A stretch of 32,239 bases of DNA from Desulfuromonadales bacterium. GTDB taxonomy: Bacteria; Desulfobacterota; Desulfuromonadia; Desulfuromonadales; BM103. Of the stretch, positions 3,164-29,042 are shown in pieces (within the stretch, counting starts at the first letter, position 1; each line of letters starts with the position of its first letter). A program made the position numbers and the translations under genes. The notes under the pieces were generated by a model. That model was not told the DNA's origin. It saw only the letters and a list, made by a program, of their open reading frames with translations, and searched no databases. The DNA lies in NCBI GenBank assembly GCA_030145195.1, contig JAQYVY010000039.1:1-32239 (forward strand), given 5' to 3'.

Positions 3164-3169
3164 TTCACC

Positions 3170-5077
3170 ATGCAACCATCATCACCCTCATGGCAGCCTC
3201 ACTCCAACTCGGTCATCGCCGCAGTGATGGCGACCTGCCGTAAATTTCCTGAGCACAAGGCTTTTGTCTACCGGGTTGGTGATAGTGAGCTGACGGTCTC
3301 CTACAACAAGTTGCGTGAAGATGTTATCTTGCTGACACGGTCATTCCAGGAGAATCATATTGGCGCCGACAGCAAGGTGCTGATGCTCGCGGATAATCGC
3401 TATGCCTGGATGGTCACAGACCTGGCACTGATGGCGCTCGGCGCTGTCAGTGTGCCGCGCGGCAGCGATACCCCCTCTCAGGAACTGGAATACATTCTCA
3501 AACACGCCGACTGCTCGTGCCTGGTGGTGGAGAACGAGGCCTTGCTGACCCGACATCAAGAGGTAATCAGCGGTCGCAAAGAGCTCAAAAACATCTTCAT
3601 CATCGAAGGCAGCGACCGCCACACTCTGTTCAGTCGACTCTACTCCTACAACGACCTGCTTAAAGAACGCACTCTGACCCCGGAACATTTTGCTGCGTTC
3701 GACGCGATGATTGAGCCGATCAATCAGAACGCGTTGGTCACCATCATCTATACCTCCGGGACCACTGGCACGCCAAAAGGGGTGTTGCTGAATCATCGCA
3801 ACATCCTGTTCAACACTGAGAACCTGCCTCCATTGGTCGCCTTGACGGATCAGGACCTGTGGGTCTCAATTCTGCCGATCTGGCACATCTTTGAGCGCAC
3901 CGCCGAGCTCCTGGCTCTGACTGCTGGCTCCTGTATCGTTTATTCGAACCTCAAGAGTTTTTCTGCCGATCTGGAAAAGTATAAACCGACCCTGGTGGCA
4001 ACCGTTCCGAGACTGTGGGAGGCCATGCACGACAAGGTGCTGAACGCCGTTGCCGTTCGTGGGCGTTCCGCACAAAAGATCTTCACTCTGTTGATCAAAA
4101 TCTCGGTTCGTTTTCGTCGTGCCCAACGGCAGTTGCGCGGGCACTTGCCGAAATTTGTCAAAGAGCCCTTGCCGGTCCGTCTGGGACGGAATCTAGCGGC
4201 ATGTTTTGAACTGATTGTGCTGGCGCTACCTTACCGTCTGGCACAGAAAAAGCTCGCCCCGCTACGTGCCAAATTCGGTGGTCGGCTGCGGATCGCCATC
4301 AGCGGAGGCGGCAGCTTGCCCACCTATCTTGAAAACTGGCTTGATGCCATTGGTATCCGGATTGCCAACGCCTACGGCATGACCGAATGCGCCCCCGCTA
4401 TTGCCGGACGTGGCTACAATAGCGATATCTTTGGCACCCTCGGTGGCCCGGTTTCAGTCACCGAGCTGCGGGTGGTTGATGCTGACGGCAACCCTGTGGC
4501 TCCCGGTATTGAAGGTGAGGTTGAAGTTCGCGGTCCGCAGGTTTTTCCCGGCTACTACGACAATGATGAAGAGAACCGCAAAGCTTTTACCGGAGACGGG
4601 TTCTTTCGCACGGGCGACCTTGGTAAGTTTACCCTCACGGGCGAGCTGGTTTTGACCGGTCGGGCCAAAGAAATCATTGTCTTGGCCAGCGGTGAGAACA
4701 TTGATCCTTCACGGATTGAAGGTGCCATCAACCAGCTGCCGTTCGTCAATGATGCGGTGCTGGTCGGTCAGGATCGCAAAGGGCTGGCAGCCCTGATTGT
4801 TCCGGATTGGGACAAGTTGAAAGAATTGGTCGCTGACAAGTTGTCATATAATGGCTGCGAAGTGCAAAGTGACAAGGCGATGCGTGATCGGGTCAAAGCC
4901 GAGATCAACCGCTTGCTGCAAGCTAAAAACGGTTTCAAGCCCTACGAAAAACTGCAGAAGATCGTTTTTTTAAAGCATGAATTTACGGTTGGCGAAGAAT
5001 TGACCAACACCTTTAAAAAGCGCCGCCACGTGATTGAAAAGAAATACCGCGAAGTAATTGATCGGCTGTTTAAATAG
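3170..5077 (+). CDS. Long-chain acyl-CoA synthetase (AMP-forming)
   Basis: A 635-residue adenylate-forming enzyme predicted to convert a long-chain fatty acid, ATP and CoA to acyl-CoA, AMP and PPi at the inner face of the membrane. The ATP/AMP signature TIIYTSGTTGTPKGV is at residues 191-205. YGMTECAP is the adenine-binding A5 motif. The FFRTGDLG segment followed by LTGRAKEIIVLASGENIDP supplies the ribose-binding Asp and the hinge. The C-terminal lysine-rich region is normal for the family, as is the length. An AAGGG ribosome-binding site precedes the ATG. It starts six bases after the exporter stop and so is probably co-transcribed, perhaps activating fatty acids handled by the exporter (inference). 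The gene meets the 4Fe-4S gene tail to tail, 18 bases away. Confidence 0.93.
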   Translation: MQPSSPSWQPHSNSVIAAVMATCRKFPEHKAFVYRVGDSELTVSYNKLREDVILLTRSFQENHIGADSKVLMLADNRYAWMVTDLALMALGAVSVPRGSDTPSQELEYILKHADCSCLVVENEALLTRHQEVISGRKELKNIFIIEGSDRHTLFSRLYSYNDLLKERTLTPEHFAAFDAMIEPINQNALVTIIYTSGTTGTPKGVLLNHRNILFNTENLPPLVALTDQDLWVSILPIWHIFERTAELLALTAGSCIVYSNLKSFSADLEKYKPTLVATVPRLWEAMHDKVLNAVAVRGRSAQKIFTLLIKISVRFRRAQRQLRGHLPKFVKEPLPVRLGRNLAACFELIVLALPYRLAQKKLAPLRAKFGGRLRIAISGGGSLPTYLENWLDAIGIRIANAYGMTECAPAIAGRGYNSDIFGTLGGPVSVTELRVVDADGNPVAPGIEGEVEVRGPQVFPGYYDNDEENRKAFTGDGFFRTGDLGKFTLTGELVLTGRAKEIIVLASGENIDPSRIEGAINQLPFVNDAVLVGQDRKGLAALIVPDWDKLKELVADKLSYNGCEVQSDKAMRDRVKAEINRLLQAKNGFKPYEKLQKIVFLKHEFTVGEELTNTFKKRRHVIEKKYREVIDRLFK

Positions 5078-5095
5078 TCCACAAGTCGCGCTCTG

Positions 5096-6373
5096 CTAGC
5101 GCGCATCATAACGTTCACACAACGCACCCAGATAGCGTGATCCAATCTGTTCGCTGGCCAGCGCCCGCTTGACCGGTGGAAGCTTCAGAATGACTCCGAA
5201 CATGGCCGCCAACGCCCGGTGGCGCCACATCACCTGATTATCGAAAATCAAATTTTGCAGTTTACCTCGTTCTATCGCCATCAGCACCGCTTTATGCGTC
5301 GAGTTCACCGGGGTAATCACCCGGCTCGCCCGGGGCTGCATGGTTAAAGCCCCAAGCCGACAATTGCGCACGCAGACCCCGCAACCCAGGCAGAGCTCCA
5401 GGTCGATGACGGCCTGTTTCCTGCCAGAACCATCGACCTGTTCGGCCTCCAGAGCAATAACCTTGACCGGACAAACGGGCAGACACTGGCCACAACCGCT
5501 ACAACCTGTCCCAACCCCGGCAATGAAGTTGCTGGTGTGAACCGGCCGTTCGTAGCCGAAGCGCTGTGCGGCGAGTAAGGCCTCACAGCAGCAGGAGCAA
5601 CAGTTGCAGATGAAGCTGATATCGTTTTGAACATTCTCACCAAACTGGACCAGGTTCTGCTCATAAGCCTTGTGGAGCAGCTCCTTGCATTCGCTGCGGT
5701 CGATTTTGCGGGCGTAGTCGCTCCGAATCAGTGAGCTCGCAACGTTATTGAACGTCATGCAGATATCCATTTCAGCAGAACAGGCCCGGCCCTGGTGCTG
5801 GCGCTTATGCCGACAGTAACAGAGGCCGACCCCGATATCGTCTGCGGCTTCGATCACCGCAGTCGCCTTATCATACCCCAGCACATGTAGCGCCTGCTCG
5901 CTGCTGACCGCGCTCTCATGAACAAAAACCCGTCCCAACTGGGTCTCGCCGGTTAAAAACAACTCCCGCACAAAATCCTCTTCAACCGAAATATATTGTT
6001 CATAGAGCTCACTTAAGAGCTTCTGGTCAATATCTTCTCGGGTGCGCATCAGGGCAAACTCGAAAAACCCCGCCATTGGTGGTGGCAGGACATAAGACAC
6101 AGAGTCCTCCAACTGGATATCAACCAGGAGAGCCCGCCTGGCCAATTGCTGCAGAGTTTGTTTGGCTTCCGCAATGGGAATTCGCCAGTTTCGTGCCGCT
6201 TGCTCAGCGGTGAACGGCTTAATGGGCAACAGAGAGACCCGTTCCGCTTCCTCTTCACTGAAGAGCAGGGTCAGAATTCGATTGAGCAGTTTGGAGGGGG
6301 GAGACCCCTGCGGGCAGAGGTTGAGGCGGTGAGTCAGTTGCTGGTAACTGGTGCGGGACGTGTGGTGAGCCAC
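5096..6373 (-). CDS. Cysteine-rich 4Fe-4S dicluster protein
   Basis: A 425-residue protein with a GTG start preceded by GGAGG. Residues 30-100 look like a winged-helix-type region. A CYCRHK motif (C185, C187) followed by C198 and C205 may hold another metal site. A very unusual CNCCSCCC cluster lies at 256-263. Two classical CxxCxxCxxxC ferredoxin motifs follow at C291/294/297/301 and C328/331/334/338, the pattern for two 4Fe-4S clusters. There is no signal peptide, so it is probably cytoplasmic. From memory, similar proteins occur in anaerobic deltaproteobacteria without an assigned reaction; a redox or electron-transfer role is inferred. It starts 24 bases after the diguanylate cyclase stop on the same strand and is probably co-transcribed with it. 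Confidence 0.85.
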   Translation of the reverse strand: MAHHTSRTSYQQLTHRLNLCPQGSPPSKLLNRILTLLFSEEEAERVSLLPIKPFTAEQAARNWRIPIAEAKQTLQQLARRALLVDIQLEDSVSYVLPPPMAGFFEFALMRTREDIDQKLLSELYEQYISVEEDFVRELFLTGETQLGRVFVHESAVSSEQALHVLGYDKATAVIEAADDIGVGLCYCRHKRQHQGRACSAEMDICMTFNNVASSLIRSDYARKIDRSECKELLHKAYEQNLVQFGENVQNDISFICNCCSCCCEALLAAQRFGYERPVHTSNFIAGVGTGCSGCGQCLPVCPVKVIALEAEQVDGSGRKQAVIDLELCLGCGVCVRNCRLGALTMQPRASRVITPVNSTHKAVLMAIERGKLQNLIFDNQVMWRHRALAAMFGVILKLPPVKRALASEQIGSRYLGALCERYDAR

Positions 6374-6397
6374 TGAAACCTCCGTAAGGAGAGAGAA

Positions 6398-7441
6398 TCA
6401 GGCCGAAAGAACGGCGTCGCGTGACGTTTCCTTAACTCGATACATGGCTTGGTCGGCAAGACGGATCAAACCGTCCTTGGAATCCGCATCATCAGGAAAG
6501 GTGGCAATCCCGAAACTGGCGGTCAATTTAAAGGGGACCCCGTTATCATCACGGAAATCGTAGGCACGGAAAAGTTCGCACAGCTTGGTCGCCAGAGTCA
6601 TCGCGCCGCTTTTGCCAGTATTCGGCAGTACGACGACGAACTCATCACCACCGTAACGGGCGGATTTGCAGATCTTGCGCACATTGTTTTTAATCAGAGC
6701 ACCGACTTCACTGAGGGTCCGGCTGCCAACCAGATGACCACAGGTATCATTGATCTTCTTGAAGAAATCAAGGTCGATGAAAATCAGTGACAGCTTACCG
6801 CCAAAGCGCCGCACCCGCTCGATTTCTTCTTCAATCAAAGTGTGCAGGTAGCGACCGTTGTAGAGTCCGGTCAGATCGTCGGTAATAACCAGTTCGCTGA
6901 TACGCATGAAGTTACGGGCGTTTTCAATGGCGATGGCCGCATAATCGGAGATGGTCGAGAGGATCTGCAGGTCGGCCTCTTTGAAAATCTTTTCGTTCGG
7001 GCCGTTAACCAGTTCGATAACACCCAGCACCTTATCCCGGCTGCGTACCGGCACACAAAGCACCGACTGCGTGATAAAGGAAGAAACTTTGTCAAAATGA
7101 TCGGAGAAACGATCATCCTCGGTGACATCGGCGATCAGTAGCGCTTCGCCATGCTCTGCCACCCAACCGGCGACTCCCTGACCCGCAGCCACTTTCAAGC
7201 CTTTGAGCTGTTCTGACGCCGGAGAAACCGCAATTTCAAAAGTCAGCTCACCAGACCCTTCATCGCGCAGGAGCAGCGACCAAGACTGGGATTTCAGGAG
7301 GCGGCTGAGCTGATCCATAATCAGGCTGAGGACATTTTCCAGATCCACTGTCGACGTCAAGGCCTTACCAATCTCGATAAGGACTTCAAGTTCCCGATTC
7401 CGTCGTTCTAGCGTTTTTAGTAAATGGGTGTCTATCGACAC
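6398..7441 (-). CDS. GAF-GGDEF diguanylate cyclase
   Basis: Predicted cytoplasmic enzyme making c-di-GMP from two GTP. I chose the GTG at 7441 because GGAGA (7448-7452) lies at ideal spacing; an in-frame TTG at 7456 has no such site. The protein is then 347 residues. A short N-terminal coiled coil leads into a GAF sensor domain (about 20-170), then a GGDEF domain starting at DDLTGLYN. The active-site GGDEF is intact at 264-268. The inhibitory I-site position reads RKIC instead of RxxD, so product feedback inhibition through the usual primary site is probably lost. No membrane segment is seen, so the GAF ligand should be a small cytosolic molecule, unidentified. It is transcribed with the downstream 4Fe-4S gene and divergently from the ATPase operon. 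Confidence 0.92.
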   Translation of the reverse strand: MSIDTHLLKTLERRNRELEVLIEIGKALTSTVDLENVLSLIMDQLSRLLKSQSWSLLLRDEGSGELTFEIAVSPASEQLKGLKVAAGQGVAGWVAEHGEALLIADVTEDDRFSDHFDKVSSFITQSVLCVPVRSRDKVLGVIELVNGPNEKIFKEADLQILSTISDYAAIAIENARNFMRISELVITDDLTGLYNGRYLHTLIEEEIERVRRFGGKLSLIFIDLDFFKKINDTCGHLVGSRTLSEVGALIKNNVRKICKSARYGGDEFVVVLPNTGKSGAMTLATKLCELFRAYDFRDDNGVPFKLTASFGIATFPDDADSKDGLIRLADQAMYRVKETSRDAVLSA

Positions 7442-7562
7442 AGGCAATCTCCACAATATTTGGAATTATCGTGGCAATTTATCACGTTTTACTGAGCAGG
7501 TCACTCTTTTCAAGTAAATTCAGGGGCCTCGGAACGCACACAGAGCGAAAATCGCCACCCTC

Positions 7563-7571
7563 TGGTATACT
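7563..7571 (+). promoter_or_regulatory. Candidate extended -10 promoter for the A/V-ATPase operon
   Basis: TGGTATACT fits an extended -10 element (TGn followed by TATACT, five of six matches to TATAAT), 31 bases before the first ATPase gene. No convincing -35 box sits upstream, as is common for extended -10 promoters. It lies in the 161-base divergent region between the cyclase and the ATPase operon. Based on pattern only. Confidence 0.4.
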
Positions 7572-7602
7572 GAAAACATTAGTAACCACTGAGGGTTTAC
7601 CC

Positions 7603-7947
7603 ATGAGTGACGGATTACTGGAAAGTATCATTCAATTGGAGAAATGGATTCAAGCCCAGGTTGTTGCCGAACAAGAGCGTGCCGCAACCTGGCAAGAGCG
7701 TGAACTGGTTGCGCTCGAAGCATCCCAGTCCAAATTGAGACAACAGGTCGAAGACCGCTTCCATCAGGAACTGATCAAGCGCCAGAAGAGTTTTCAGCAT
7801 CAAGGAGAAACCCTTGAGGCCGAAGCGAGCGGTTGGTGTCAGCGCTTGGCGGCGCTGGATGACGCAACCCTATGCGAAATTTTGCGCAGACATCTTGCTG
7901 CTCTTCTGCCAGGGGGTGACAATGATCATCCGCATGTCCAAAATTGA
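7603..7947 (+). CDS. ntpF: A/V-type ATPase peripheral-stalk coiled-coil subunit (NtpF-like)
   Basis: A 114-residue, almost entirely helical, Gln/Glu-rich protein with no membrane segment, as expected for the stalk subunit that dimerises with subunit E and holds the catalytic head still. The start is the ATG of MSDGLLES, 12 bases after GAGGG. An upstream in-frame ATG at 7471 would add a low-complexity extension overlapping the promoter region and is unlikely. It is the first gene of the ATPase operon, the position of ntpF in Enterococcus hirae, and its 3' end overlaps the subunit I start by 26 bases. Sequence similarity in this family is weak, so the call rests mainly on position, size and coiled-coil character. 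Confidence 0.75.
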   Translation: MSDGLLESIIQLEKWIQAQVVAEQERAATWQERELVALEASQSKLRQQVEDRFHQELIKRQKSFQHQGETLEAEASGWCQRLAALDDATLCEILRRHLAALLPGGDNDHPHVQN

Positions 7948-9799
7948 GATCATCGGCCCCAAGGAAAAGTTGCTCGAAACCCTTGATCTTATACATAACC
8001 GGGGCGTCTTTCAGCCCGATCCGCAACTATTGGAACGGATTGAGTTGACAGAGGGACAACGCCCCCAAGCCTTAGTCCTTGATGAGGATGAGCTGCGAGA
8101 AAGAACTTTTTTCAGCGATTTGCACGCCCGCTTGTCAGTACTGATTGAACTCCTGCCGAAAACAACCGGCCAGACCTCCCAATTGCAACCGCTTCCGGTT
8201 ATGGATGCGCTGAACGAGCTTGCCAACCAGCATCTGGCCGCAGTCCGCGAACGAACCGAGCAGCTGGCTGAACACCGTCAGGAAGTGGAGACTCTACAAC
8301 GCGACCTCTCCTTCTGGAAGGCTCTGGAACCACTGACTCACGATCTCCCCACTGGCTCAAACCTGGAATTGTTTGGCATTGCCATTCGAGATGCCCAGCA
8401 ACTTGAAGTCCTTGAAAATTTGCTGCACGAGCGCACTCTGGGCCGTTGTCACGTCAGCAGCACATTGACTGCCGATGGGGCCTTGGTTGGCCTGATCGCA
8501 ACCACAGGGGAAATATCGAGCCAGTTGCGTGAGGCGTTGACCAGTGAGCATGTGCCGGAGTTGTCGGTGCCAGAAGATCTGGCCAATCTGCCGATACCAC
8601 AACGGGTGACTGCCTTGAGTGAACGTTTGGCGACCTCTCTGGCACGATGTCGAACGATAGAGTTGCAAACGCAGGAGATGTCACACCGCTGGCTGCCGAT
8701 TTATCAGCGGGCTCTGGCTTGGCTGGAAGAGCGTCTCGACCTCTACCGGGCAACAGCAACGGTCTTTACCACCCAGCTCTGTTTTATTATTCAAGGCTGG
8801 ATGGCAAAAACCGAAGTGCCTGAGCTAAAAAGTCTGTTAACGCAGGCCTTTGATGGTTGCGTTGTTCTCGAACAACAGGCCATCTTCGAGGAGGAGATTG
8901 ATCAGATTCCAGTAAAATTGTGCAATCCAGGTTATTTTGCGCCGTTCGAGATTTTTTCCCGGCTACTACCACTGCCTAAATACTCCTCCTACGATCCGAC
9001 TCCATTTATCGGGCTCTTCTTCCCGGTCCTGTTCGGCATGATTCTCGGTGATCTTGGCTACGGCCTGGTGCTTCTGGTTATTGCGGTGGTTTTCACCAAG
9101 CGATTCCCTGCTCACCATTTAGCCAGTGATCTGGGTAAAGTCCTCGGCGTAGCAGCCCTTTATGCCTGCCTGTTTGGGTTGCTCTATGGTGAGCTGTTTG
9201 GTGATCTGGGCAAAGTCAATTTTGGTTTGGAGCCCCTCTGGTTTGATCGCGGTACCGAACTTGTGCCGATGATTGTGTTCTCCCTGACCGTTGGGGTCGT
9301 GCACATTCTGCTCGGCAGTCTCCTTGGTGTCTGGTCTCATTTACGCCGACATCAACCGCGCGAGGCTCTCATCAAGCTGGTGATGCTGCTCGCGATTCTG
9401 TTGCTGGTTCTGGCGGCGGTCGGCTGGTTCTATCCGCATCCTTGGCTAGCCACCCGACCTCTGCTGCTCAGCGTCGCTATTTTGCTGCCGATATTGATTG
9501 CGGCAGAAGGGTTGCTTGCGCCCCTTGAAATGCTCAAAACTCTTGGCAATATCATCTCGTATGTCAGGATCATGGCCATCGGTCTCTGTTCGGTTCTACT
9601 CGCTATGGTCGCCAACCAACTGGGCGGCATGACCGGCGACATCCTGGTCGGGACTCTGGTTGCAGGGGTGTTACACGGTTTCAATCTATTGCTCGGTGTG
9701 TTTGCACCGACCGTCCACTCGCTACGCTTGCATTATGTTGAATTTTTCAGCAAGTTTCTTGACCTGGGTGGTCGGCGGTTTGAACCCTGGCATAAATAG
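7922..9799 (+). CDS. ntpI: A/V-type ATPase subunit I (membrane a-subunit)
   Basis: A 625-residue stator subunit that forms the ion half-channels against the c-ring. The N-terminal half (to about residue 335) is soluble and coiled-coil rich, and the C-terminal half has seven or so membrane helices beginning at the FFPVLFGMILGDLGYG region. The essential ion-path arginine is visible as R549 in SYVRIMAIGL, equivalent to the conserved Arg of Vph1/NtpI. The ATG at 7922 follows GGGGGTGA; a second in-frame ATG 12 bases later (MSKIEIIG) is also possible. The length is slightly short for the family (usually 640-660), with the difference in the soluble half. It overlaps ntpF and is followed 27 bases later by the c-ring gene. 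Confidence 0.93.
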   Translation: MIIRMSKIEIIGPKEKLLETLDLIHNRGVFQPDPQLLERIELTEGQRPQALVLDEDELRERTFFSDLHARLSVLIELLPKTTGQTSQLQPLPVMDALNELANQHLAAVRERTEQLAEHRQEVETLQRDLSFWKALEPLTHDLPTGSNLELFGIAIRDAQQLEVLENLLHERTLGRCHVSSTLTADGALVGLIATTGEISSQLREALTSEHVPELSVPEDLANLPIPQRVTALSERLATSLARCRTIELQTQEMSHRWLPIYQRALAWLEERLDLYRATATVFTTQLCFIIQGWMAKTEVPELKSLLTQAFDGCVVLEQQAIFEEEIDQIPVKLCNPGYFAPFEIFSRLLPLPKYSSYDPTPFIGLFFPVLFGMILGDLGYGLVLLVIAVVFTKRFPAHHLASDLGKVLGVAALYACLFGLLYGELFGDLGKVNFGLEPLWFDRGTELVPMIVFSLTVGVVHILLGSLLGVWSHLRRHQPREALIKLVMLLAILLLVLAAVGWFYPHPWLATRPLLLSVAILLPILIAAEGLLAPLEMLKTLGNIISYVRIMAIGLCSVLLAMVANQLGGMTGDILVGTLVAGVLHGFNLLLGVFAPTVHSLRLHYVEFFSKFLDLGGRRFEPWHK

Positions 9800-9826
9800 C
9801 GTTATCAACCTTAAAGGAGGAGCATC

Positions 9827-10042
9827 ATGGAAAAAGTCTTGATTGCCTTTGCTGCAGCTCTAGCGATCGGTCTACCGGCCATCGCCACGGCGTGGGCCCA
9901 GTCGCGCATCGGCGCGGCAGGAGCCGGGACTCTGGCGGAAAAACCTGAGCTTACCGGGGCTATCATCATCCTGGTCGCTATTCCAGAAACCATGGTCATC
10001 CTCGGCTTTGTGGTCGCGGCGATGATCCTGCTGATGATCTAG
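9827..10042 (+). CDS. ntpK: A/V-type ATPase subunit K (c-ring proteolipid)
   Basis: A 71-residue, two-helix proteolipid, a single hairpin rather than the duplicated four-helix form of E. hirae NtpK. The ion-carrying glutamate is E54 in AIPETMVILGF, and Q25 lies in helix 1. The Q25-E54 spacing of 29 equals Q110-E139 in E. hirae NtpK, and the ET pair and ILGF that follow also match that Na+-binding hairpin. Na+ rather than H+ as coupling ion is therefore plausible (inference). It has the best ribosome-binding site in the operon, AAAGGAGG at 9813-9820 with six bases to the ATG, consistent with the many copies needed per ring. Confidence 0.93.
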   Translation: MEKVLIAFAAALAIGLPAIATAWAQSRIGAAGAGTLAEKPELTGAIIILVAIPETMVILGFVVAAMILLMI

Positions 10043-10048
10043 TCACCC

Positions 10049-10648
10049 ATGGGTGAAAATGAACTAAAAATCGCCCTGAAGAACCAGGGCGAGCAACAGA
10101 TCAGAACCGGCTGGGAGTCGGCGGAACAACGCGTTTCCGAACGCCGTTGTGCCATTGAAGAGGCGGTTGCGGGGCTGCAGGAACAAACCGACCGGCAGCT
10201 GCAAATCCAAACGGCCGCCCAACGTAGCGAGCTCCTGCACGAAGCCCAGACCCGAACTCGCGAGGGTCGACTGCACGCCGAGGCCGACTTGGGTTGTCGC
10301 CTGTATGCGTTAGCGCAGGAGCTGCTACCAGAGCTTGCGGCAACCGAGCGTCGGCAACGCTGGCAAGCGTTATGCGACGAGATTCCACCAGCCGAGTGGC
10401 AACAAGTGCTGGTTTGTACTCCAGACCGCGCACAGGCGCAGCAGGTTTTTCCTGCCTGCGAAATATCGCTTGAGGACAATTTGGGCGGCGGACTCATGGT
10501 TACCACCGCAGAGGGCTTGATCACGGTTGACAACTCCTTGCGATGCCGTCTGCAACGATCCTGGCCCGCTCTGCTGTCGAATCTTCTGGCCGAACTTCGC
10601 ATTTTGGTGGAGAGCGATGAAGCTACTGACACCGACACCTCCAGCTGA
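10049..10648 (+). CDS. ntpE: A/V-type ATPase subunit E (peripheral stalk)
   Basis: A 199-residue stalk subunit. The N-terminal two thirds form a long Glu/Gln/Arg-rich coiled coil, and the C-terminal globular part contains the family pattern of a Gly-rich turn followed by a strand and DNSLRCRL (GGGLMVTTAEGLITVDNS). It pairs with the small coiled-coil subunit to link the A3B3 head to subunit I. The ATG lies six bases after the subunit K stop with little Shine-Dalgarno sequence, so translation is probably coupled. Its end overlaps the subunit C start by 32 bases. Confidence 0.88.
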   Translation: MGENELKIALKNQGEQQIRTGWESAEQRVSERRCAIEEAVAGLQEQTDRQLQIQTAAQRSELLHEAQTRTREGRLHAEADLGCRLYALAQELLPELAATERRQRWQALCDEIPPAEWQQVLVCTPDRAQAQQVFPACEISLEDNLGGGLMVTTAEGLITVDNSLRCRLQRSWPALLSNLLAELRILVESDEATDTDTSS

Positions 10649-11519
10649 ACTTCCGGGCGAGGCCCTGCTGGCACGCTTGCGTTGCCGTCGAGCCGGCATT
10701 GACCTGACCGGTCGTTCGCAAATGTCTCAGGATCATGCTCCGGGACAGCCACTGCCACAGGCTGTTGACTGGGTTTACCGGCGGCTCAATGCCCGCCTTA
10801 AAAAACAGCTTGAACCGTATCTGGACCTTCTGGCGGTGCGCTCCCTGGTGCTGATGCTGCGGTATCGCTTGGCAGGTGAACCTCTACCGCTAGCTCTGGA
10901 GCGTGAACCGCTCCTGAACATCCAGATAAAAAAGCTGCTCACGCCCGATCTCGAACCAGAGTTAATTGTCGTCAATCTAGCCAGATCGCTACAGGTCGAA
11001 TACCCTTTTTTTGAGAACTTGGCGACAACCTGGCGACGACAGGGACCCGGTGGCGTAGAGCAACAATTGCTCAGCGGCATTCTGCGCCACAGCTTGAGCA
11101 CAACGCGCGACGCGACAGTTCGAAAAGCGATCCGCTACCTGCTCGATATGCGCAACCTGCTGATTGTTATGAAATTCTGGCGCTGGAGAATCTCGACCCC
11201 GCCAGAGCTGACCGTTGGCGGACAGCTCACCGCAGAGAACCTGCTGCGGATATGGAAAAACCATGACACTCGGCGGCTTGCGACACTGGCCAGCAGCATG
11301 GTCGGAGTTCCCACCGTTGAATGCGAGGCAACCGTTATGGAGCGCCACCTTCTGAGCGGGCTGGGCCGACAGTTACAACGCGCGGGACGTGACCCGTTAA
11401 GCGTGGGAGTTATCCTCGACTACCTCTGGCGAGCACAGCTTGCTTCTTATAACCATATCTTGCGTCAAACGCTGACGCCGGACAGTGAAGAGCTGCTTGA
11501 GGAGGTGATGCTGTTATGA
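10617..11519 (+). CDS. ntpC: A/V-type ATPase subunit C (AC39-like socket)
   Basis: A 300-residue helical protein matching the V-ATPase C/AC39 family, which caps the c-ring and docks the central rotor stalk. I chose the ATG of MKLLTPTP, which has GGAG seven bases upstream; an upstream in-frame ATG at 10527 would extend it far into subunit E. The family feature visible is the RKAIRYLLDMRNLLIVMKFWRW segment in the middle, where D-M-R-N-L is typical. The N-terminus overlaps subunit E, and the stop overlaps the subunit F start (ATGA). Divergence is high, so identity rests on this motif plus position. Confidence 0.85.
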   Translation: MKLLTPTPPAELPGEALLARLRCRRAGIDLTGRSQMSQDHAPGQPLPQAVDWVYRRLNARLKKQLEPYLDLLAVRSLVLMLRYRLAGEPLPLALEREPLLNIQIKKLLTPDLEPELIVVNLARSLQVEYPFFENLATTWRRQGPGGVEQQLLSGILRHSLSTTRDATVRKAIRYLLDMRNLLIVMKFWRWRISTPPELTVGGQLTAENLLRIWKNHDTRRLATLASSMVGVPTVECEATVMERHLLSGLGRQLQRAGRDPLSVGVILDYLWRAQLASYNHILRQTLTPDSEELLEEVMLL

Positions 11520-22604: not shown

Positions 22605-23033
22605 TCAGAAAAGCAGGACCGGACAGATGACATTGTGCAAGACATAATTCGCCACCGAACCAAAGATCACGTCACGAATTTCCCCGGTACTTTCGCGACG
22701 GCCGATGATTGTCAACTGAAACTCTTCGTCGTTGGCGACCTTACAGATGGTTTGCCTGATCGTACCGTACTCCAGACGTGCACCAACATTGAAGCCCGCA
22801 GCTTCAAGTTGTTTCACCTTGTCATCAAGCACCAACTGTCCAGCCTTACCGGCGTTTTCGCGGATCATCTCCATCTGGAAATCGGGGATCATGCGATAAG
22901 TGAGTTTATCGACATCAACCACGTGCAGCACGGTAAGCTTGTTGGGAAAAGACTCTTTGAGATTGATGATCTTTTCGAGGGTACGGCCTGCTGTCGCTGA
23001 GCCATCGACCGGAATCAGAATTTTCATTTCCAT
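22605..23033 (-). CDS. Universal stress protein (UspA family)
   Basis: A 142-residue single-domain UspA protein: KILIPVDGSATAGRTLEKI at the N-terminus and IIGRRESTGEIRDVIFGSVANYVLHNVICPVLLF at the C-terminus. The family's ATP-binding motif G-x2-G-x9-G-(S/T) is partly altered: the second glycine is Glu (GRRE), though the terminal GSVA is kept, so ATP binding is uncertain. AGGAGG stands five bases before the ATG. It follows dctM by 43 bases on the same strand. Usp proteins are known partners of TRAP transporters (TeaD with TeaABC in Halomonas elongata), which makes a role in tuning this transporter plausible. Confidence 0.92.
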   Translation of the reverse strand: MEMKILIPVDGSATAGRTLEKIINLKESFPNKLTVLHVVDVDKLTYRMIPDFQMEMIRENAGKAGQLVLDDKVKQLEAAGFNVGARLEYGTIRQTICKVANDEEFQLTIIGRRESTGEIRDVIFGSVANYVLHNVICPVLLF

Positions 23034-23076: not shown

Positions 23077-24369
23077 TCAGGGTGGCGGGTAGACCCAATT
23101 TGGCAGGAAGAGCACCAGATCGGGGCAGAATGTCAGAAGCATCAGGATGGCGATTTGGATAAGCAGAAACGGCAGAACCGCCTTGGAGACATAGAGCAGG
23201 TCGCGGTTGGCGACTGCCCCGGAGATATAGAGGCTGACTCCCAGAGGAGGTGTGCAGTAGCCGATTCCGAGATTGAGGGTCATGAGCAGGCCGAAATGCA
23301 TGGTGTCGATACCGAACTGGCTCAAGAGCGGCAAAAAAATCGGTGTCAGGATCAAGGTGGCGGAGATGATGTCCATGAACATGCCGATGATCAACAGCAT
23401 GATATTGACCGAGAGCAGAAAGACCCAGGGGGTTTGAATGTTTTCCACTACGGCGTTGGCAATCTGGCCTGGAATCTGTTCGAAGGTCAGATATTCACCG
23501 AAAACCGAGGCCCCGGCCACGATGACCAACAAGGTTGATGAGGTGATCGCCGAGGAGATCACGACCCCTTTGATATCGCGCAGTTTGAGATCGCGGTGGA
23601 TGCAGATTTCGACAATGAACGCATAAACGCAGGCGACCACAGCCGCTTCGTTGGCTGTGAAGTATCCGGAATAGATGCCGCCAAAAATCAGCACCGGCAG
23701 CAACAGAGCCCAGATGCTTTCACGCAGGGTTGCCATAACTTCGCGCACACTTGGACGCGGCATGGTCGGGGCATCCTGGCGTTTACAGAAAAAGTACGCA
23801 TAGAGTGACATGAAGAAGATGATCAGGGCTCCGGGTACAAAGCCGGTCAGAAAAAGCGCTTCAAGCGGGTCGTTGGTGACCATGGCGTAGAGGATCATCG
23901 AGATCGATGGCGGGATAATCACGCCAAGGATCGGTGCCGTGGTCATGATGCCGACCGAGAACTTTTCGTCATAATTGTTCTTGAGCAGAGCCGGGATCAT
24001 AAAGCCGCCGATGGCGACCACCGTGGCCACGGTAGAGCCGGAAATGGCGCCGAAAAATCCGCAGGCCAAAACCCCGGCCATGGCCAGCCCGCCGGGCAGG
24101 AAGCCGACCAGACAGTTGGCGGTTTTAATCAACTTGGCGACGATGCTGCCGGTGGTCATGATGTTGCCGCAGAGGACAAAGAAGAGCACCACGATCAGGG
24201 CAAACTTGTCCATGCTGCGATAAAGAACTTCGATCACAATCTGCGGATCAATCCCGGCAATCCAGACCAGACCGACCATGCCGGTGAAGAAGAGCGCCAT
24301 GAACACCGGAATGGTTGAGGCCAGACAGCCGATCAGCAGCGCCATGATGACGAGGGAATTGGTGTCCAT
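23077..24369 (-). CDS. dctM: TRAP transporter large permease DctM
   Basis: A 430-residue inner-membrane protein with about 11-12 helices, the ion-coupled channel of a tripartite ATP-independent periplasmic (TRAP) transporter. Typical stretches include GAISGSTVATVVAIGGFMIP and GVIIPPSISMILYAMVTNDP near residues 105-160, the conserved Gly/Ser/Pro regions of DctM, and LNLGIGYCTPPLGVSLY near the C-terminus. The length is as usual. It starts two bases after the dctQ stop. Confidence 0.96.
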   Translation of the reverse strand: MDTNSLVIMALLIGCLASTIPVFMALFFTGMVGLVWIAGIDPQIVIEVLYRSMDKFALIVVLFFVLCGNIMTTGSIVAKLIKTANCLVGFLPGGLAMAGVLACGFFGAISGSTVATVVAIGGFMIPALLKNNYDEKFSVGIMTTAPILGVIIPPSISMILYAMVTNDPLEALFLTGFVPGALIIFFMSLYAYFFCKRQDAPTMPRPSVREVMATLRESIWALLLPVLIFGGIYSGYFTANEAAVVACVYAFIVEICIHRDLKLRDIKGVVISSAITSSTLLVIVAGASVFGEYLTFEQIPGQIANAVVENIQTPWVFLLSVNIMLLIIGMFMDIISATLILTPIFLPLLSQFGIDTMHFGLLMTLNLGIGYCTPPLGVSLYISGAVANRDLLYVSKAVLPFLLIQIAILMLLTFCPDLVLFLPNWVYPPP

Positions 24370-24371
24370 GA

Positions 24372-24893
24372 TCAGGAGACCTCATCTTCGGTCGGGAGCT
24401 CACAGAGTTGGATGCCGAGCCAATCCTCGGCCATGATGATCAGGGTGCGAATAAACATCATGCCCCCCATGATCGGCAGGACGGCGTAAAAGTACCATTC
24501 CGGAATCTGCAGTGACGCGGTTTTGGCGTATTGGTCATGGTAGACCATTGTGGTCAGGCCGTAGCCGAGTTTAATCATGAAGCCGGAGAACACCAGCACC
24601 CCAATGTGACTGAACAGAGTCAAGGGCTTTTTCAAGAAGGGAAAGAGTTGCGGCAAGGCGTCAATACGGATCAGCGAGCGATTACGGATCGCTGCGATAC
24701 AGCCGACATAGGTGGTGAAAAAGATGGTTTTTCGTACCACCTCATCTGACCAGTAAAGGTTGACGTCATTGGTCATTTTGCGCAAGGCGACATTGGCAAT
24801 CGCCACCAGCAAGGCAACCATGACCGTGACAAAGAGGCTCCAGTCCTCGACAAAGGCGAAACCGCGATGAATGTAATAAATGAACTTTTTCAT
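24372..24893 (-). CDS. dctQ: TRAP transporter small permease DctQ
   Basis: A 173-residue membrane protein with four helices and the family's conserved middle: NLYWSDEVVRKTIFFTTYVGCIAAIRNRSLIRID. I chose the ATG of MKKFIYYIHRGFAFVEDW; a longer in-frame version would run back over the terminator upstream and is not supported. There is no recognisable Shine-Dalgarno site before this ATG, so translation may be weak or coupled. It supports DctM in binding the substrate-loaded solute-binding protein. Confidence 0.9.
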   Translation of the reverse strand: MKKFIYYIHRGFAFVEDWSLFVTVMVALLVAIANVALRKMTNDVNLYWSDEVVRKTIFFTTYVGCIAAIRNRSLIRIDALPQLFPFLKKPLTLFSHIGVLVFSGFMIKLGYGLTTMVYHDQYAKTASLQIPEWYFYAVLPIMGGMMFIRTLIIMAEDWLGIQLCELPTEDEVS

Positions 24894-24988
24894 AAAAGGC
24901 GAGTGGCGCGTAACGCTAATATTTATGGGGTTGAATCGAGAGGATGTCCAGATGACATCCATCATTTCGTTATGTGCCGCTGGACTGC

Positions 24989-25022
24989 AAAAAAACGATC
25001 GGGGAGAGTCATCTCCCCGATC
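24989..25022 (-). terminator. Intrinsic terminator between dctP and dctQ
   Basis: Read on the minus strand: an 11-base-pair perfect stem GATCGGGGAGA / TCTCCCCGATC with a four-base loop, followed at once by GTTTTTTT. This is a textbook Rho-independent terminator placed after dctP but before dctQM. A partial stop here would make far more binding protein than permease, as TRAP and ABC systems usually require. Confidence 0.85.
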
Positions 25023-25051
25023 GCTGATCATAACGGGTTTTATTCCAAGAA

Positions 25052-26164
25052 TCAATTCCCGAGCGCAGCTTGGACCTTTTTGAAATAATCCATGCCGATC
25101 TTCTCGCCCCAGGTCTGGTAAACAGGCGCGATCATGTCAACCAACTGCTGCTTTTCAGCGGCGGACAAGGAGAAGAAGGCAACGCCAGCTTCCTTGGCCT
25201 TGGCAACTTGGGCAGCATGCTGCTGGCGAGTCAGCTCACGGGTCTTGGCGCTCTCTTCCTCAATGACCGTGATCAGGATTGTTTGCAGGTCAGCAGGCAA
25301 CTTGTCGAACCATCCCTTGTTCATCAGGTGGATGAAGAGGCCCTGGGCATAATCGAGCTCGGTAAAGTTCTTGGCGATGGTGAACTTCTTGGTAATGTTG
25401 CAGACGATCGCAGTGTGATCGAGGCCGGTGATGACCCCTGTCTGCAGCGCCTGGGGAACGTCTGGCCACGGCATGACCGTAAACTTCATGCCCCATGCCT
25501 TGTAGAAATCGGCATTGAGGGGGGCCTGAGCAATCCGGAAATTAATCGATTTGGCATCGGCAATGGTTTTGACCGGGGTGTTGGTGGCCCAACCGTAGGG
25601 GCCGTAACCGGTGACGTCAACCGTCATGATGTCGCTTTTCAGGGCGCTGTCAGCAAAGGGCTGCCAGAGCTCGGGAGTATTGCGGAAGGTATCGAGCTTG
25701 TCGAAAGTGTCGACAACGTAGGGCATGTTGACGATACCGAGGGTGTCAGCGACATTCTGCGCTGCCACCGAAGAACTCAGCATGCCGTGAACAGCACCCA
25801 GCTTGAGCTTGTTGATGACATCTTTTTCCCCACCCAGCTGAGCAAGGGGACGGAAATCGACGAAGAGGCGTCCTTTTGATTCTTCCCAGACGCGATCGCG
25901 AATCCGGTAACCAGCGCCGACCCCTTCGATAACCGGGTGCGAGATATTGGAAAGAATGTAAGTGAATTCTGCGCCGCTTGGATCGAATTTAGCTTTCCAT
26001 GCTTCCAGAGGGTCTTTTTTCTTTGGTTCCGCAGCCGTTGGTTCCGCCGCCTTTGCTGCTACCACTTTTTTTGCTGTGTCAGCTGGCTTCGGAGCTTCTT
26101 CCCCGCAGCCGAAAAGCATTACCGTCGCAAATAAAACTGTAATAATTAAAGACATTTTCTTCAT
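25052..26164 (-). CDS. dctP: TRAP transporter solute-binding lipoprotein DctP
   Basis: A 370-residue solute-binding protein. The start is the ATG at 26164, six bases after AGGAGA; a longer in-frame start upstream is not needed. The N-terminus MKKMSLIITVLFATVMLFGC is a lipoprotein signal with C20 as the lipidated residue (lipobox LFGC), followed by an Ala/Lys/Pro/Glu linker to about residue 50. The TRAP binding fold runs from 51 to 370 and includes LGGEKDVINKLKLGAVHGM, GYGPYGWATNTPVKT and INFRIAQ, where R210 is the likely carboxylate-binding arginine of TRAP proteins. The ligand cannot be named from sequence. Residues 51-330 are nearly identical to the N-terminal domain of the caspase-like gene upstream. 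Confidence 0.94.
   Translation of the reverse strand: MKKMSLIITVLFATVMLFGCGEEAPKPADTAKKVVAAKAAEPTAAEPKKKDPLEAWKAKFDPSGAEFTYILSNISHPVIEGVGAGYRIRDRVWEESKGRLFVDFRPLAQLGGEKDVINKLKLGAVHGMLSSSVAAQNVADTLGIVNMPYVVDTFDKLDTFRNTPELWQPFADSALKSDIMTVDVTGYGPYGWATNTPVKTIADAKSINFRIAQAPLNADFYKAWGMKFTVMPWPDVPQALQTGVITGLDHTAIVCNITKKFTIAKNFTELDYAQGLFIHLMNKGWFDKLPADLQTILITVIEEESAKTRELTRQQHAAQVAKAKEAGVAFFSLSAAEKQQLVDMIAPVYQTWGEKIGMDYFKKVQAALGN
25175..26014 (-). repeat. Duplicated solute-binding-domain segment, copy in dctP
   Basis: About 840 bases shared with 28061-28900 in the same orientation. Identity extends to silent positions; for example, the block around 25376-25500 matches 28261-28385 at nearly all bases. 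By eye I count about 33 amino-acid differences over 280 aligned residues. This marks a recent duplication or gene conversion. Confidence 0.85.
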
Positions 26165-26251: not shown

Positions 26252-28978
26252 CTATTCTAAAATTGCCAGCACCGACGCTTTGTCGCCACTGACACTTGGA
26301 TCTTGATTGATGTTTCTCAAACGGCCTGCCATATAGGGAACTTTTTCTTTAAGATACGTCTCCATCTCTGAAACCGTAATGCTTTTGTTGTTGTCAACAT
26401 CTGCTGTTCCTTGCAAACCTTTCAGGAAATAATACGTGAACAATGAGTGTTTTTTTTCGTGATACCAGGCGGAAACTTGGCCTGTAGATGTGCTGGTGAA
26501 GACGACGGCCTGCGGAGGACTTTCAGCTAAGGCGTTGGTTTTCAGCATAGCCGGGCTTATCCCCCGAAATAGCGGCCCCTGTTCTGAATTTCCGGAAAAG
26601 CAGGCGTCTAGAACAATAGTCATTGTTTCTGAAGGTAGCTTCGCGAGGTTTTTGTACAAGGTTTCAATGGAATAACCATTAGTGCTTAGGTACTGCGGGT
26701 CTGCATCGGCAGGCACAAAGTAGGCGTCACCAGTCTTCAAATCCGGAGCACCGTGTCCTGTGTAATAGATAAACACGTGGGACGTTCTTTCTGGGTGGAC
26801 AAATCGTGCAAGTTTACCCTTGTGGTCTCGATCATTGCCAAACAATTCATTGAACTTGGAGAGCGTGGCGTTTTCCTCAAAGAGGATATTCTCTGTTTTG
26901 AACCCAAGAGTCTGAATTAAATATTTCCGCATAACATTGGCATCGCGTATTGCAAATGCCACGTCTGGGACATTGGGGGCACTGTAGTCACGGTTGCCGA
27001 TAATAACGGCGACATCATAATCGCCAGCTTTCTGACCTGCCGGGATGTTGTGATCAACATCAACACTTAAGCCCCGGGTGGAATCAATCCTCTCCGTCTG
27101 GTGCTCAGGTTGCGGCAACGACTCGATCACAACCTGCTGGATCTCACGAAGAGAAGCCTCCATCTTCAAATCCAGTTTGGCTGTTTGCGCAAACCGGTGC
27201 CGGGCCTCATCAATTTTCAGCTCTACCGGGATTTCTTCGCCGACGTTAATCCGCCTGTTTGTATAGATACTAAAGCTAATGTCTCTATGTTCACCCGGCA
27301 TTAAAGCCCCAATTTCAAAGGAACTTTTACTGTCGGCAGCGAGGTACACATTGGGACCAAGTTTGATTGTGGCTATAGTGTCGCGCGCGTCACCGGAGCC
27401 AACGTTCTGCACTCTTAACGTTAGCTCGACAAACTCCTTTGGCTCAATTCGAGCGTTTCCGCTCTGGTCATTGATCCCTAAATCCGCCAAGATCAAGCGT
27501 GGTGGTGCGAGAGCCTTGCATTCAAATACGAGTTTTATTGGCTCCGGGTCAAAGCCCCGACTCTCCAGCGAGTCGATGCGCAGTCGAACATCACCATCAC
27601 TCAGCAACTCGCTGGCATTGAGTTTTATCTTTTTCGTCTTGCTCTGACCTGCGTTCAAGTCACCGATGAAAACTTTTTGTGGGTAATTCAAGCCAGTGAT
27701 TCGATTCTGGGCCGTTAATTGTGCTTCCACGTTGAAAGCCTTGCCCCGGCCAAGATTTTCAAAAACAAGAACAAGCTGCCCTGTCTCCTCAGCATCGAGG
27801 ATACGGTTACCCGATGGTTCAAGGAAGCTTGCAGAGACCATTAGGTCTGGAGGATATTGTTGCATTGGCGTTGAGATCTGTGATCGATCCTCTTTTCCGG
27901 TAGCAACGTAACTGTCCTTAGAGTCTTCCTGAGAAAAATACGCTTCAACGTTTGCTAGATAATCCCGGCCGATTGCAGCTCGGGACTTACTTCGGTACTT
28001 ATTATAGACAGCCTGTGACTGCCGAATCAGCCTGTTCCTATCCTCCGTGGCCAGATTGTAAAACTTCACGCCAGCCTTCTTGGCTTTGGCGACCTGGTCA
28101 GCATGTTGTTTACGGGTCAGTTCCCGGGTTTGGGCGCTCTCTTCCTCAATGACCGTGATCAAGATTTTCTGCAGATCAGTTGGTAGTCTGTCAAACCAGC
28201 GCTTGTTCATCAGGTGGATGAAGAGCCCCTGGGCATAATCGAGTTCGGTAAAATTTTTAGCGATGGTGAATTTCTTGGTAATGTTGCAGACGATCGCAGT
28301 GTGATCGAGGCCGGTGATGACACCAGTCCCCAGAGCCTGAGGAACGTCTGGCCACGGCATGACCGTAAACTTCATGCCCCATGCCTTGTAGAGGTCGACG
28401 TTGAGTGTAGCCTGAGCGATTCGGAAATTGATCGATTTGGCATCGGCAATGGTCTTGACCGGGGTATTGGTAGCCCAACCGTAGGGGCCGTAACCGGTGA
28501 CGTCAACCGTCATGATGCCGCTTTTCAGCGTGCTGTCAGCAAACGGCTGCCAGAGCTCGGGAGTGTTGCGGAAGGTGTCGACTTTATCGAAGGTGTTGAC
28601 CACGTAGGGCAAGTTGACGATGTTCAGGGTGTCAGCGATATTGGTAGCGGCGATCGAACTACTCAACATGCCGTGAACGGCGCCAAGCTTGAGTTTGTTG
28701 ATAACGTCTTTTTCCCCGCCCAGCTGGGCAAGGGGACGGTAATCGACAAAGAGACGTCCGTTGGTTTCTTTCCAGACGCGGTCTCGAATCCGGTAACCGA
28801 CGGCGACGCCCTCGATAACAGGGTGGGAAATGTTGGAGAGAATGTAGGTATACTCGGCGCCATTCGGATTAAACTTTGGCTTCCACGCTCCCAGCGGGTC
28901 TTTTGCCGCTTGCAACGGTGGTGACAGAAAGCAAAGATCGACCAAAAGTATAATTAAAAACACTAATTTCTTTAACAT
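26252..28978 (-). CDS. Exported fusion: TRAP solute-binding domain, two CARDB-like repeats, metacaspase-like peptidase C14
   Basis: A 908-residue protein; the ATG at 28978 was chosen, and an in-frame GTG at 28990 is also possible. A Sec signal peptide ends near A24, with no lipobox, so it is probably periplasmic. Domain order: TRAP solute-binding domain (about 27-350; R186 kept in INFRIAQ); a short linker; two tandem Ig-like CARDB-type repeats (about 376-487 and 492-606), each opening with PP-x-L and G-N-x-x-(L/I) and carrying N-(L/V)-G-x-G-x-A; a linker; then peptidase C14 (653-908). The catalytic dyad is intact: H742 in YYTGHG and C793 in DACFSG. The DxCxSG form is metacaspase-like, and D791 would favour Arg/Lys at P1. 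DVDNNKSITVSE at 860-871 fits an EF-hand calcium loop. It lies 87 bases before dctP on the same strand, with no terminator between. The role (ligand-gated periplasmic protease) is inferred. Confidence 0.88.
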   Translation of the reverse strand: MLKKLVFLIILLVDLCFLSPPLQAAKDPLGAWKPKFNPNGAEYTYILSNISHPVIEGVAVGYRIRDRVWKETNGRLFVDYRPLAQLGGEKDVINKLKLGAVHGMLSSSIAATNIADTLNIVNLPYVVNTFDKVDTFRNTPELWQPFADSTLKSGIMTVDVTGYGPYGWATNTPVKTIADAKSINFRIAQATLNVDLYKAWGMKFTVMPWPDVPQALGTGVITGLDHTAIVCNITKKFTIAKNFTELDYAQGLFIHLMNKRWFDRLPTDLQKILITVIEEESAQTRELTRKQHADQVAKAKKAGVKFYNLATEDRNRLIRQSQAVYNKYRSKSRAAIGRDYLANVEAYFSQEDSKDSYVATGKEDRSQISTPMQQYPPDLMVSASFLEPSGNRILDAEETGQLVLVFENLGRGKAFNVEAQLTAQNRITGLNYPQKVFIGDLNAGQSKTKKIKLNASELLSDGDVRLRIDSLESRGFDPEPIKLVFECKALAPPRLILADLGINDQSGNARIEPKEFVELTLRVQNVGSGDARDTIATIKLGPNVYLAADSKSSFEIGALMPGEHRDISFSIYTNRRINVGEEIPVELKIDEARHRFAQTAKLDLKMEASLREIQQVVIESLPQPEHQTERIDSTRGLSVDVDHNIPAGQKAGDYDVAVIIGNRDYSAPNVPDVAFAIRDANVMRKYLIQTLGFKTENILFEENATLSKFNELFGNDRDHKGKLARFVHPERTSHVFIYYTGHGAPDLKTGDAYFVPADADPQYLSTNGYSIETLYKNLAKLPSETMTIVLDACFSGNSEQGPLFRGISPAMLKTNALAESPPQAVVFTSTSTGQVSAWYHEKKHSLFTYYFLKGLQGTADVDNNKSITVSEMETYLKEKVPYMAGRLRNINQDPSVSGDKASVLAILE
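28061..28900 (-). repeat. Duplicated solute-binding-domain segment, copy in the caspase fusion
   Basis: Partner of 25175-26014, same orientation, about 2.9 kb apart. Similarity stops near residue 306 of the fusion, where the two proteins diverge. Past that point the fusion gene turns clearly more AT-rich. Confidence 0.85.
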
Positions 28979-29013
28979 AATTATTAGCACTTAGACTGGA
29001 GAAGTTGTAAGCG

Positions 29014-29042
29014 ATAATATTTCAAACCATGTTTTATTACAA
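29014..29042 (-). promoter_or_regulatory. Candidate sigma70 promoter for the caspase fusion/TRAP operon
   Basis: On the minus strand, TTGTAA (29042-29037), 17-base spacer, TATTAT (29019-29014). This gives four of six and five of six consensus matches at the ideal spacing. The start would lie near 29007, about 28 bases before the chosen ATG. Confidence 0.5.

Follow-up and report, generated by a model that had tools for sequence, protein, structure and literature searches.

A TRAP solute-binding domain fused to a caspase-fold protease in a Desulfuromonadales bacterium: a candidate ligand-responsive periplasmic protease

Why would the binding protein of a transporter carry a protease? The question is raised by one gene in a 32,239-nucleotide stretch of DNA from a Desulfuromonadales bacterium (GenBank assembly GCA_030145195.1, contig JAQYVY010000039.1, positions 1 to 32,239 of the forward strand; hereafter the window), which joins a signal peptide, a solute-binding domain of the DctP type found in tripartite ATP-independent periplasmic (TRAP) transporters, two CARDB-like domains and a Peptidase_C14 domain at 26252-28978 on the minus strand. 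As far as sequence goes, the fusion is genuine, and it is a new architecture within a known, modular group of bacterial caspase homologues. The frame, which the original prediction had described as one continuous frame, is open throughout and encodes 908 amino acids from the ATG at 28978. An upstream GTG at 28990 would extend it, without an internal stop, to 26252-28990 and 912 amino acids; the ATG is the likelier start, and residue numbers throughout refer to the 912-residue form from the GTG. All features of the window described below lie on the minus strand.

The proposed signal peptide was borne out by eye and by hydropathy at residues 5-28 (28907-28978, ending LQA/AKD), and no second membrane-helix stretch was found in the fused protein, the highest 19-residue hydropathy mean after residue 40 being 1.16. 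A lipoprotein reading was dropped, as Cys20 lacks a lipobox by eye. The DctP domain spans residues 30-353 (27932-28903; Pfam, alignment and model) and includes the conserved Arg190. Its completeness, which had been claimed, was upheld by PF03480 (residues 70-333, E 8.3e-42, 143.9 bits against a curated cut-off of 23.4), by the NCBIfam TRAP solute-binding protein model NF037995 (142.8 bits, above its cut-off of 50) and by the fold of the predicted structure, while the TIGR00787 cut-off of 175 was missed both by the fused protein (93.7) and by the plain dctP gene that follows it (92.5). For the two CARDB-like repeats the picture was mixed: Pfam called CARDB in the second repeat only (residues ~485-605, 27176-27538; Pfam match 502-595, E 1.9e-8, 34.9 bits against 22.7), and the first (residues ~383-475, 27566-27844), with no Pfam call, was recognised from a beta block in the AlphaFold2 model, from alignment and from a match to TIGR03900, a serine peptidase family, below that model's cut-off. 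The TIGR03900 match covers residues 328-612 at 58 bits, far under the cut-off of 661; the CARDB pair is thus similar to a portion of the MXAN_5808-type serine peptidase family, and from this sub-threshold match the pair may be common to unrelated proteases. The Peptidase_C14 domain occupies residues 660-912 (26252-27013; Pfam and model) and was matched by PF00656 at residues 660-883 (E 2.4e-16, 60.6 bits against 21.4), with the EACC1-associated caspase model NF047832 of NCBIfam at 73.2 bits, under its cut-off of 140.

Structure prediction, suggested earlier as a check, was carried out with AlphaFold2 in two parts. Model 1, built from the 65-row alignment A2, was good for the DctP part and poor beyond residue 360, probably on account of the alignment; model 2 covered residues 360-912 with 44 rows and reached a mean predicted local distance difference test score of 83.7. 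Residues 47-366 of the DctP model matched the TRAP solute-binding protein 4nhb (Z 35.5, root-mean-square deviation 2.0, 309 residues aligned). Model 2 consists of two consecutive all-beta blocks (~383-475 and ~485-605) followed by the caspase domain, for which the best match was Arabidopsis metacaspase 4 (6w8s, Z 22.6, root-mean-square deviation 2.6, 213 aligned) in a near tie with MALT1 (Z 21.4) and caspase-8 (Z 21.3), and a caspase fold is thus predicted. The top Foldseek match for model 2 was the MALT1 caspase domain (E 2.7e-10); integrins ranked shortly after it, presumably by way of the beta blocks.

The active site appears intact, as had been proposed. Alignment places the catalytic pair at His746 (in YYTGHG, codon at 26753-26755) and Cys797 (in DACFSG, codon at 26600-26602), and both residues are invariant in all 44 aligned homologues and in all 59 members of a wider set, as is Asp795, two residues before Cys797. 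The smaller alignment, A3, has 44 rows and omits L105 (internal stop), L071 (nearly a duplicate of L070), L115, L117 and the weaker matches L008, L055-L061, L065, L068, L072 and L073; the larger, A4, has 59 rows of C14 frames and is without L105, L058-L061, the L079 C14 gene, copies of the window and some C14 matches from the order-wide and phylum-wide searches with the C-terminal half. I take Asp795 to stand in the place of Asp211 of a trypanosome metacaspase, two residues before the catalytic Cys there. In that enzyme Asp95 and Asp211 hold the basic P1 residue, and the metacaspase family cleaves after basic residues, according to the available portion of PMC6426788. A preference for cleavage after Arg or Lys is inferred here from Asp795, the one residue that points to it. 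Further on, an acidic loop at residues 864-875 (D864-x-D-x-N-x-S-I-T-x-x-E875, 26366-26401; from alignment columns) reads as EF-hand-like and could be a Ca2+ site: Asp stands at position 864 in 36 of 44 rows, Asp or Asn at 868 in 40 and Glu at 875 in 39. Because only the sequence of this loop points there, Ca2+ dependence of the protease is a guess. An anti-phage role was also considered and set aside as less likely, the match to the PADLOC 'caspase' model being weak (30.3 bits, residues 661-841 only); the protein has an export signal by eye, and the five downstream genes scanned, among which alone defence genes were sought, fall under transport, stress and unknown functions.

Where did the two halves come from? 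In a 45-row tree the fused DctP domain lies inside a 22-row group with the plain dctP and other dctQ-adjacent dctPs (support 82/99), in a clade that is poorly resolved, with its fork drawn open, a long-branch warning that includes the fused row and the bootstrap not settled. Between the fused and plain DctP the synonymous divergence (dS) is 0.75, so the duplication is not recent and a recent copy of the adjacent dctP was rejected; orthology with the upstream gene of the plain dctP tandems was likewise rejected, since the tree places the fused DctP elsewhere. The C-terminal half is sister (100/100, 14-row tree) to the CARDB-CARDB-C14 part of a protein encoded elsewhere in the genome (L002, on contig C85), with which it shares 58% identity. 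The front end of L002 is AMIN/STN-like, with all matches below cut-off (AMIN 20.2 of 20.5, STN 22.2 of 28.4, GspD N0 21.8 of 27). Read together from the sequences, the fused gene arose when a second copy of dctP acquired a CARDB-CARDB-C14 module at a domain boundary. GC content at third codon positions (GC3) falls from 0.66 in the DctP part to 0.53 in the CARDB part and 0.48 in the C14 part, compared with 0.635 in the plain dctP and 0.49 in the L002 gene, a step that agrees with two sources.

The same step in composition would also be expected had an assembly error joined a dctP copy to a separate CARDB-C14 gene, a suspicion that the single assembly of 100 contigs and the lack of a second genome of the genus among the matches listed do something to feed. 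Such a chimera is very improbable. The flanking genes on both sides are ordered as in three relatives (L041, L042 and L047, of 11 contigs with a plain dctP), which makes one false join an unlikely cause; the linker keeps the frame unbroken, and nowhere else in the genome is there a near-copy of either half (81% and 58% identity). In these three relatives a lone dctP stands between the same divergent efflux genes and dctQ-dctM; in the window the fused gene is an additional gene at this site. Genes for usp and DUF4301 follow in L041 and L042 (labelled by comparison with the window genes), another large gene lies upstream of dctP in L038, L040, L045, L046 and L048, and in L039, L043 and L044 the contig is cut or carries other genes there. 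Two frames were found split in these contigs, the dctP of L048 (6001-7058) and the dctM of L047 (7602-8948), which may be real breaks or sequencing errors.

A further way to discount the fusion is to regard it as a viable accident of duplication, tolerated and diverging, with no settled function. Its presence in a single genome among those searched, its long DctP branch and the GC3 step would all suit such an accident. Selection speaks against it: the fused and plain DctP differ by a nonsynonymous divergence (dN) of 0.116, giving a dN/dS of ~0.15 (the plain dctP and its nearest relative, G019, differ by dN 0.055 and dS 0.96), so that by this estimate the DctP half is under purifying selection relative to the plain copy, and in the C14 half change is concentrated at third positions, identity to the sister being 73% and 84% at the first and second codon positions and 40% at the third. 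With 912 codons open, the dyad intact and a promoter element kept as well, a fusion of no settled function seems quite unlikely.

The original prediction knew of no TRAP-caspase fusion and proposed a search for the architecture across genomes. Searches were run in overlapping genome sets, all within the phylum, with the best two to three candidates per genome scored in the class and phylum searches. No full-length relative appeared among the matches listed for 276 other genomes of the class (E up to 1e-100) or 394 other genomes of the phylum (E up to 1e-60), and a search of those 394 with the C-terminal half (E up to 1e-20) gave no protein of the same architecture among the matches listed. A search of a collection of contigs, from which the window's own genome was perhaps left out, returned 11 loci that all matched in the DctP part only, and the 13 matches within the window's own genome included no leftover end of either half. 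Nor was a DctP-caspase fusion or such a combination of domains found in the open-licence PMC literature searched, and the earlier claim of novelty therefore holds within this range.

The protease half is less singular. Proteins of the same phylum with CARDB-CARDB-C14 and no DctP were found in G192, G355, G377, G286, G580 and G643. Their identity to the fused protein's C-terminal half is 49-54%, their domain order is the same by alignment (one CARDB and C14 confirmed by Pfam in G192, G355 and G377), and those with a complete start show a signal peptide by eye; the 5' end of the G192 gene is cut by the contig. A more distant CARDB-CARDB-C14 protein, in G304, shares 28% identity, and its 5' end lies beyond the sequence examined. 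The unit was absent from the 12/135 other genomes of the order matching the C-terminal half, where C14 alone or weak partial matches were seen. Judged by these relatives, CARDB-CARDB-C14 is a pre-existing exported module. Among the 59 collected C14 proteins the DctP profile matched the window protein only; partners, counted over the first 25 of 68 families, included CARDB in nine (the window protein among them), ankyrin in six, the commonest TPR model in five, WD40 in four and HEAT_2 in three. Within the window's genome alone C14 is found with DctP, with the AMIN/STN-like part, with TPR, with cytochrome c7, with PEGA plus FKBP and with WD40. Since an exported CARDB-CARDB-C14 module pre-exists and C14 has many partners, the novelty lies in the partner and not in the protease: swapping partners is a habit of the C14 family, and the DctP partner is new as far as searched.

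Comparison with known systems places the protein accordingly. The TRAP solute-binding protein fusions known to me join the binding protein to the permease. Like DctP-type TRAP binding proteins (IseP, 8t9t; the plain dctP), the fused protein has their fold, the conserved Arg and the link to dctQM, and it differs from them by ~560 extra residues that include a protease. The extended TAXI binding protein BP0403 has two extra domains placed before its binding domain, one alpha/beta globular and one helical, and so is unlike the fused protein (PMC12344293, as far as the accessible text goes). Prokaryotic metacaspases and orthocaspases share with it the His/Cys dyad, the caspase fold and modular partners, as described in the accessible sections of PMC3501461 and PMC6426788. 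A 2012 survey counted 671 prokaryotic metacaspases in 112 architectures, with WD40, TPR and FGE-sulfatase among the known partner domains, and its main text contains none of the terms 'CARDB', 'DctP', 'SBP', 'solute-binding' or 'periplasm' (PMC3501461).

The surroundings of the fused gene bear out the proposal that it is the first gene of a TRAP operon. Downstream on the same strand follow a plain dctP (25052-26164, ATG at 26164, with a lipoprotein-like start MLFGCGEE by eye), dctQ (24372-25055, 227 amino acids from a TTG, with a shorter start likely; Pfam), dctM (23077-24369; Pfam and NCBIfam) and usp for a universal stress protein (22605-23033; Pfam), the last of which follows dctM in several relatives too, by eye. 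The 87 bases that separate the fused gene from the plain dctP showed no terminator-like site. Near the dctP-dctQ boundary there is a terminator-like hairpin of 14 pairs with a T tail (24994-25025), and this strong hairpin may cause binding protein to be made in excess over permease.

Upstream of the fused gene stands an exact copy of the element AATAAAACAYGGTTTG (29023-29038), inside a sigma-70-like match at 29042-29014 (TTGTAA-17-TATTAT). Of 26 upstream regions from relatives, 13 have the element, within two mismatches, starting 40-152 bp ahead of the dctP frame; with the four regions from which it was read excluded, the count is 9 of 22 (the 26 relative dctP starts include that of L043, with 254 upstream bases only). 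In the window it occurs once within two mismatches, starting 60 bp before the fused ATG, against a shuffle expectation of 0.03, and the best match upstream of the plain dctP has four mismatches. The element precedes the fused gene and not the plain dctP, and the fused gene therefore seems to carry the ancestral promoter region of the operon. It covers the spacer of the sigma-70-like match (9/12) and a short inverted repeat, AAAAC-ATG-GTTTG, by eye. As an observation in its own right, this promoter spacer with its inverted repeat (29014-29042 in the window, with a corresponding site in 13 of 26 relatives) is a possible regulator site.

What the DctP domain contributes was approached through its ligand pocket. 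Fourteen ligand-lining or ligand-binding positions of IseP, taken from the available part of PMC11668362, were mapped by hand via the alignment (Ser242, also named there, was not carried over), and the fused DctP is identical to the plain dctP at all 14, including Arg190. This Arg, equivalent to SiaP Arg147 and IseP Arg177, is present in 43 of 43 relatives and in the plain dctP, and the accessible text of PMC4646407 describes the conserved Arg of TRAP binding proteins as the residue that forms the carboxylate salt bridge. Divergence from the plain dctP, at 81% identity over 321 amino acids overall, is unevenly spread: identity is 84% at residues 30-99, 86% at 100-149, 94% at 150-249 and 85% at 250-309 (88% for 30-309), and then drops to 31% over the 36 ungapped columns of residues 310-349 (28% if four gap columns are counted as differences), a segment beside the junction at 27944-28063. 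Fourteen other rows with at least 0.88 identity elsewhere retain 0.64-0.89 over this segment, and the ratio in the fused row (0.31/0.88, or 0.35) is the lowest among 44 rows, the next being 0.43. The binding region has thus been held and the junction-side part changed out of proportion.

Together, the identical pocket and the altered junction-side end make the gating put forward in the original prediction plausible. The reading I favour, with a confidence somewhat short of an even chance, is that of a periplasmic Arg/Lys-type His/Cys protease whose activity or substrate access would be set by the TRAP ligand. A duplicate dctP would have been joined to an exported CARDB-CARDB-caspase module, first in the operon and behind the apparent ancestral promoter; the product would be exported to the periplasm and made together with the transporter, and its DctP domain would bind the same organic acid that DctPQM imports. 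Closure upon the ligand would then be relayed through the changed C-terminal helices and the two immunoglobulin-like domains to the protease, and would set the activity, or the access to substrates, of an enzyme that cuts after Arg or Lys and probably needs Ca2+. The changed DctP C-terminus and the two immunoglobulin-like domains between sensor and protease suit allosteric control and positioning alike. The more specific version, a ligand-gated caspase in which the binding domain is an allosteric sensor and an imported nutrient switches envelope proteolysis from the transporter's own promoter, is a possibility that I hold only tentatively.

Several findings weigh against the favoured reading. 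The fusion is carried by a single genome among those searched, so no conservation across species supports the coupling, and no model was confident across all domains, which puts contacts between domains beyond the reach of the two partial models. Two usual carboxylate contacts, IseP Arg156 and Asn217, are Tyr170 and His230 in the fused DctP. As this pair is common to all 45 aligned sequences (the fused and plain copies and 43 relatives), the whole dctP group probably holds its ligand differently from the usual TRAP carboxylate. Among the 140 positions conserved in at least 93% of 44 other rows, ten are altered in the fused DctP, including Q221G and P195T, the latter five residues beyond Arg190; more such changes are seen in two of those 44 rows. 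The end branch of the fused DctP measures 0.52, the median being 0.095, which speaks of faster drift than in most relatives. In absolute terms the distant upstream dctPs L031 (0.28) and L032 (0.25) are lower still over residues 310-349, being merely 58-59% identical to the plain dctP outside that segment; a claim that the changed end is unique was accordingly dropped, and only the most uneven ratio is claimed. At the promoter, two promoter-like matches further upstream score 10/12 against 9/12 at AATAAAACAYGGTTTG, and the region holds 13 such matches against 6.5 in shuffles.

The retained pocket and the changed C-terminus would also be accounted for if the DctP domain serves for docking, bringing the protease to DctQM or competing with the plain DctP, with the ligand affecting docking and not catalysis. 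The protease would then trim the transporter, the plain DctP or nearby envelope proteins. A shared operon and promoter region, the kept fold of the binding protein and the 94% identity at residues 150-249 are in keeping with docking, as is the report, in the available part of PMC10774421, that TRAP binding proteins work with QM in both open and closed states. The ten altered near-invariant residues may, on the other side, weaken docking, which I consider a somewhat unlikely explanation.

The kept pocket would likewise be expected of a second transport protein that still feeds DctQM, with the protease as a passenger of unrelated envelope function that gained a promoter and an export signal. Plain tandem dctP pairs are indeed common in the order, being found in at least 21 of 57 other genomes (read from the positions of matches), and one of the 11 contigs, L045, has two plain dctPs in tandem. 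Yet no match listed for the 57 near relatives, tandem pairs included, extends past query residue 367, the junction-side C-terminus of the fused DctP is disproportionately altered, and the fused copy groups with dctQ-adjacent dctPs and leaves the included upstream partners outside (82/99, the fork drawn open and the bootstrap unsettled). A passenger protease on a working transport protein is therefore unlikely.

Some further observations concern the neighbourhoods in which exported caspases occur. The window gene sits in a TRAP operon, whereas its sister L002 lies beside TPR-C14 and OpuAC genes: on the segment that holds it (L080, G000:C85:28000-39886, positions 5786-11280) the sister CARDB-C14 gene, a TPR-C14 gene and a gene for an OpuAC binding protein (glycine betaine type) stand in a row on one strand with intergenic gaps of 66 and 74 bp. 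This is the second case in the window's genome of an exported caspase linked to a solute-binding protein, and among the loci collected no further OpuAC relative turned up. A 10.5-kb contig of the same genome (L077, G000:C57) carries three C14 genes with a subtilase gene among them (2849-4240, 4445-6250, 9321-10457, 7079-8596), one of the C14 genes having cytochrome c7, one PEGA plus an FKBP-type isomerase and one no other Pfam domain.

Five of the six stand-alone CARDB-CARDB-C14 genes (L082, L083, L084, L127, L128) have an FGE-sulfatase-like gene close by, in contrast to the TRAP operon of the window gene; none was seen in the 3.8-kb contig of G192. More widely, FGE-sulfatase-like genes lie near C14 in L082, L083, L084, L086, L087, L089, L118, L119, L121, L122, L124, L126, L127 and L128, and not in L120, L123 or L125. 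Pfam confirmed five of these genes in four loci (L087, L082, L127 twice, L128), the rest being named by sequence match, and in L072 and L073 the FGE-sulfatase match is in the same frame as C14.

To my knowledge, the triggers and substrates of bacterial caspase homologues outside the cytoplasm are largely unknown. If the favoured reading is true, the fused protein would be one outcome of a lineage that repeatedly swaps sensor and effector domains onto exported caspases. A standard binding screen can identify ligands for the family to which its sensing domain belongs, and a plain binding protein with the same pocket is encoded in the same operon together with the transporter, so the question of what switches an exported caspase becomes directly testable with one purified protein. 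The gene also illustrates how duplication, followed by the capture of a module, can give a transport operon a proteolytic output.

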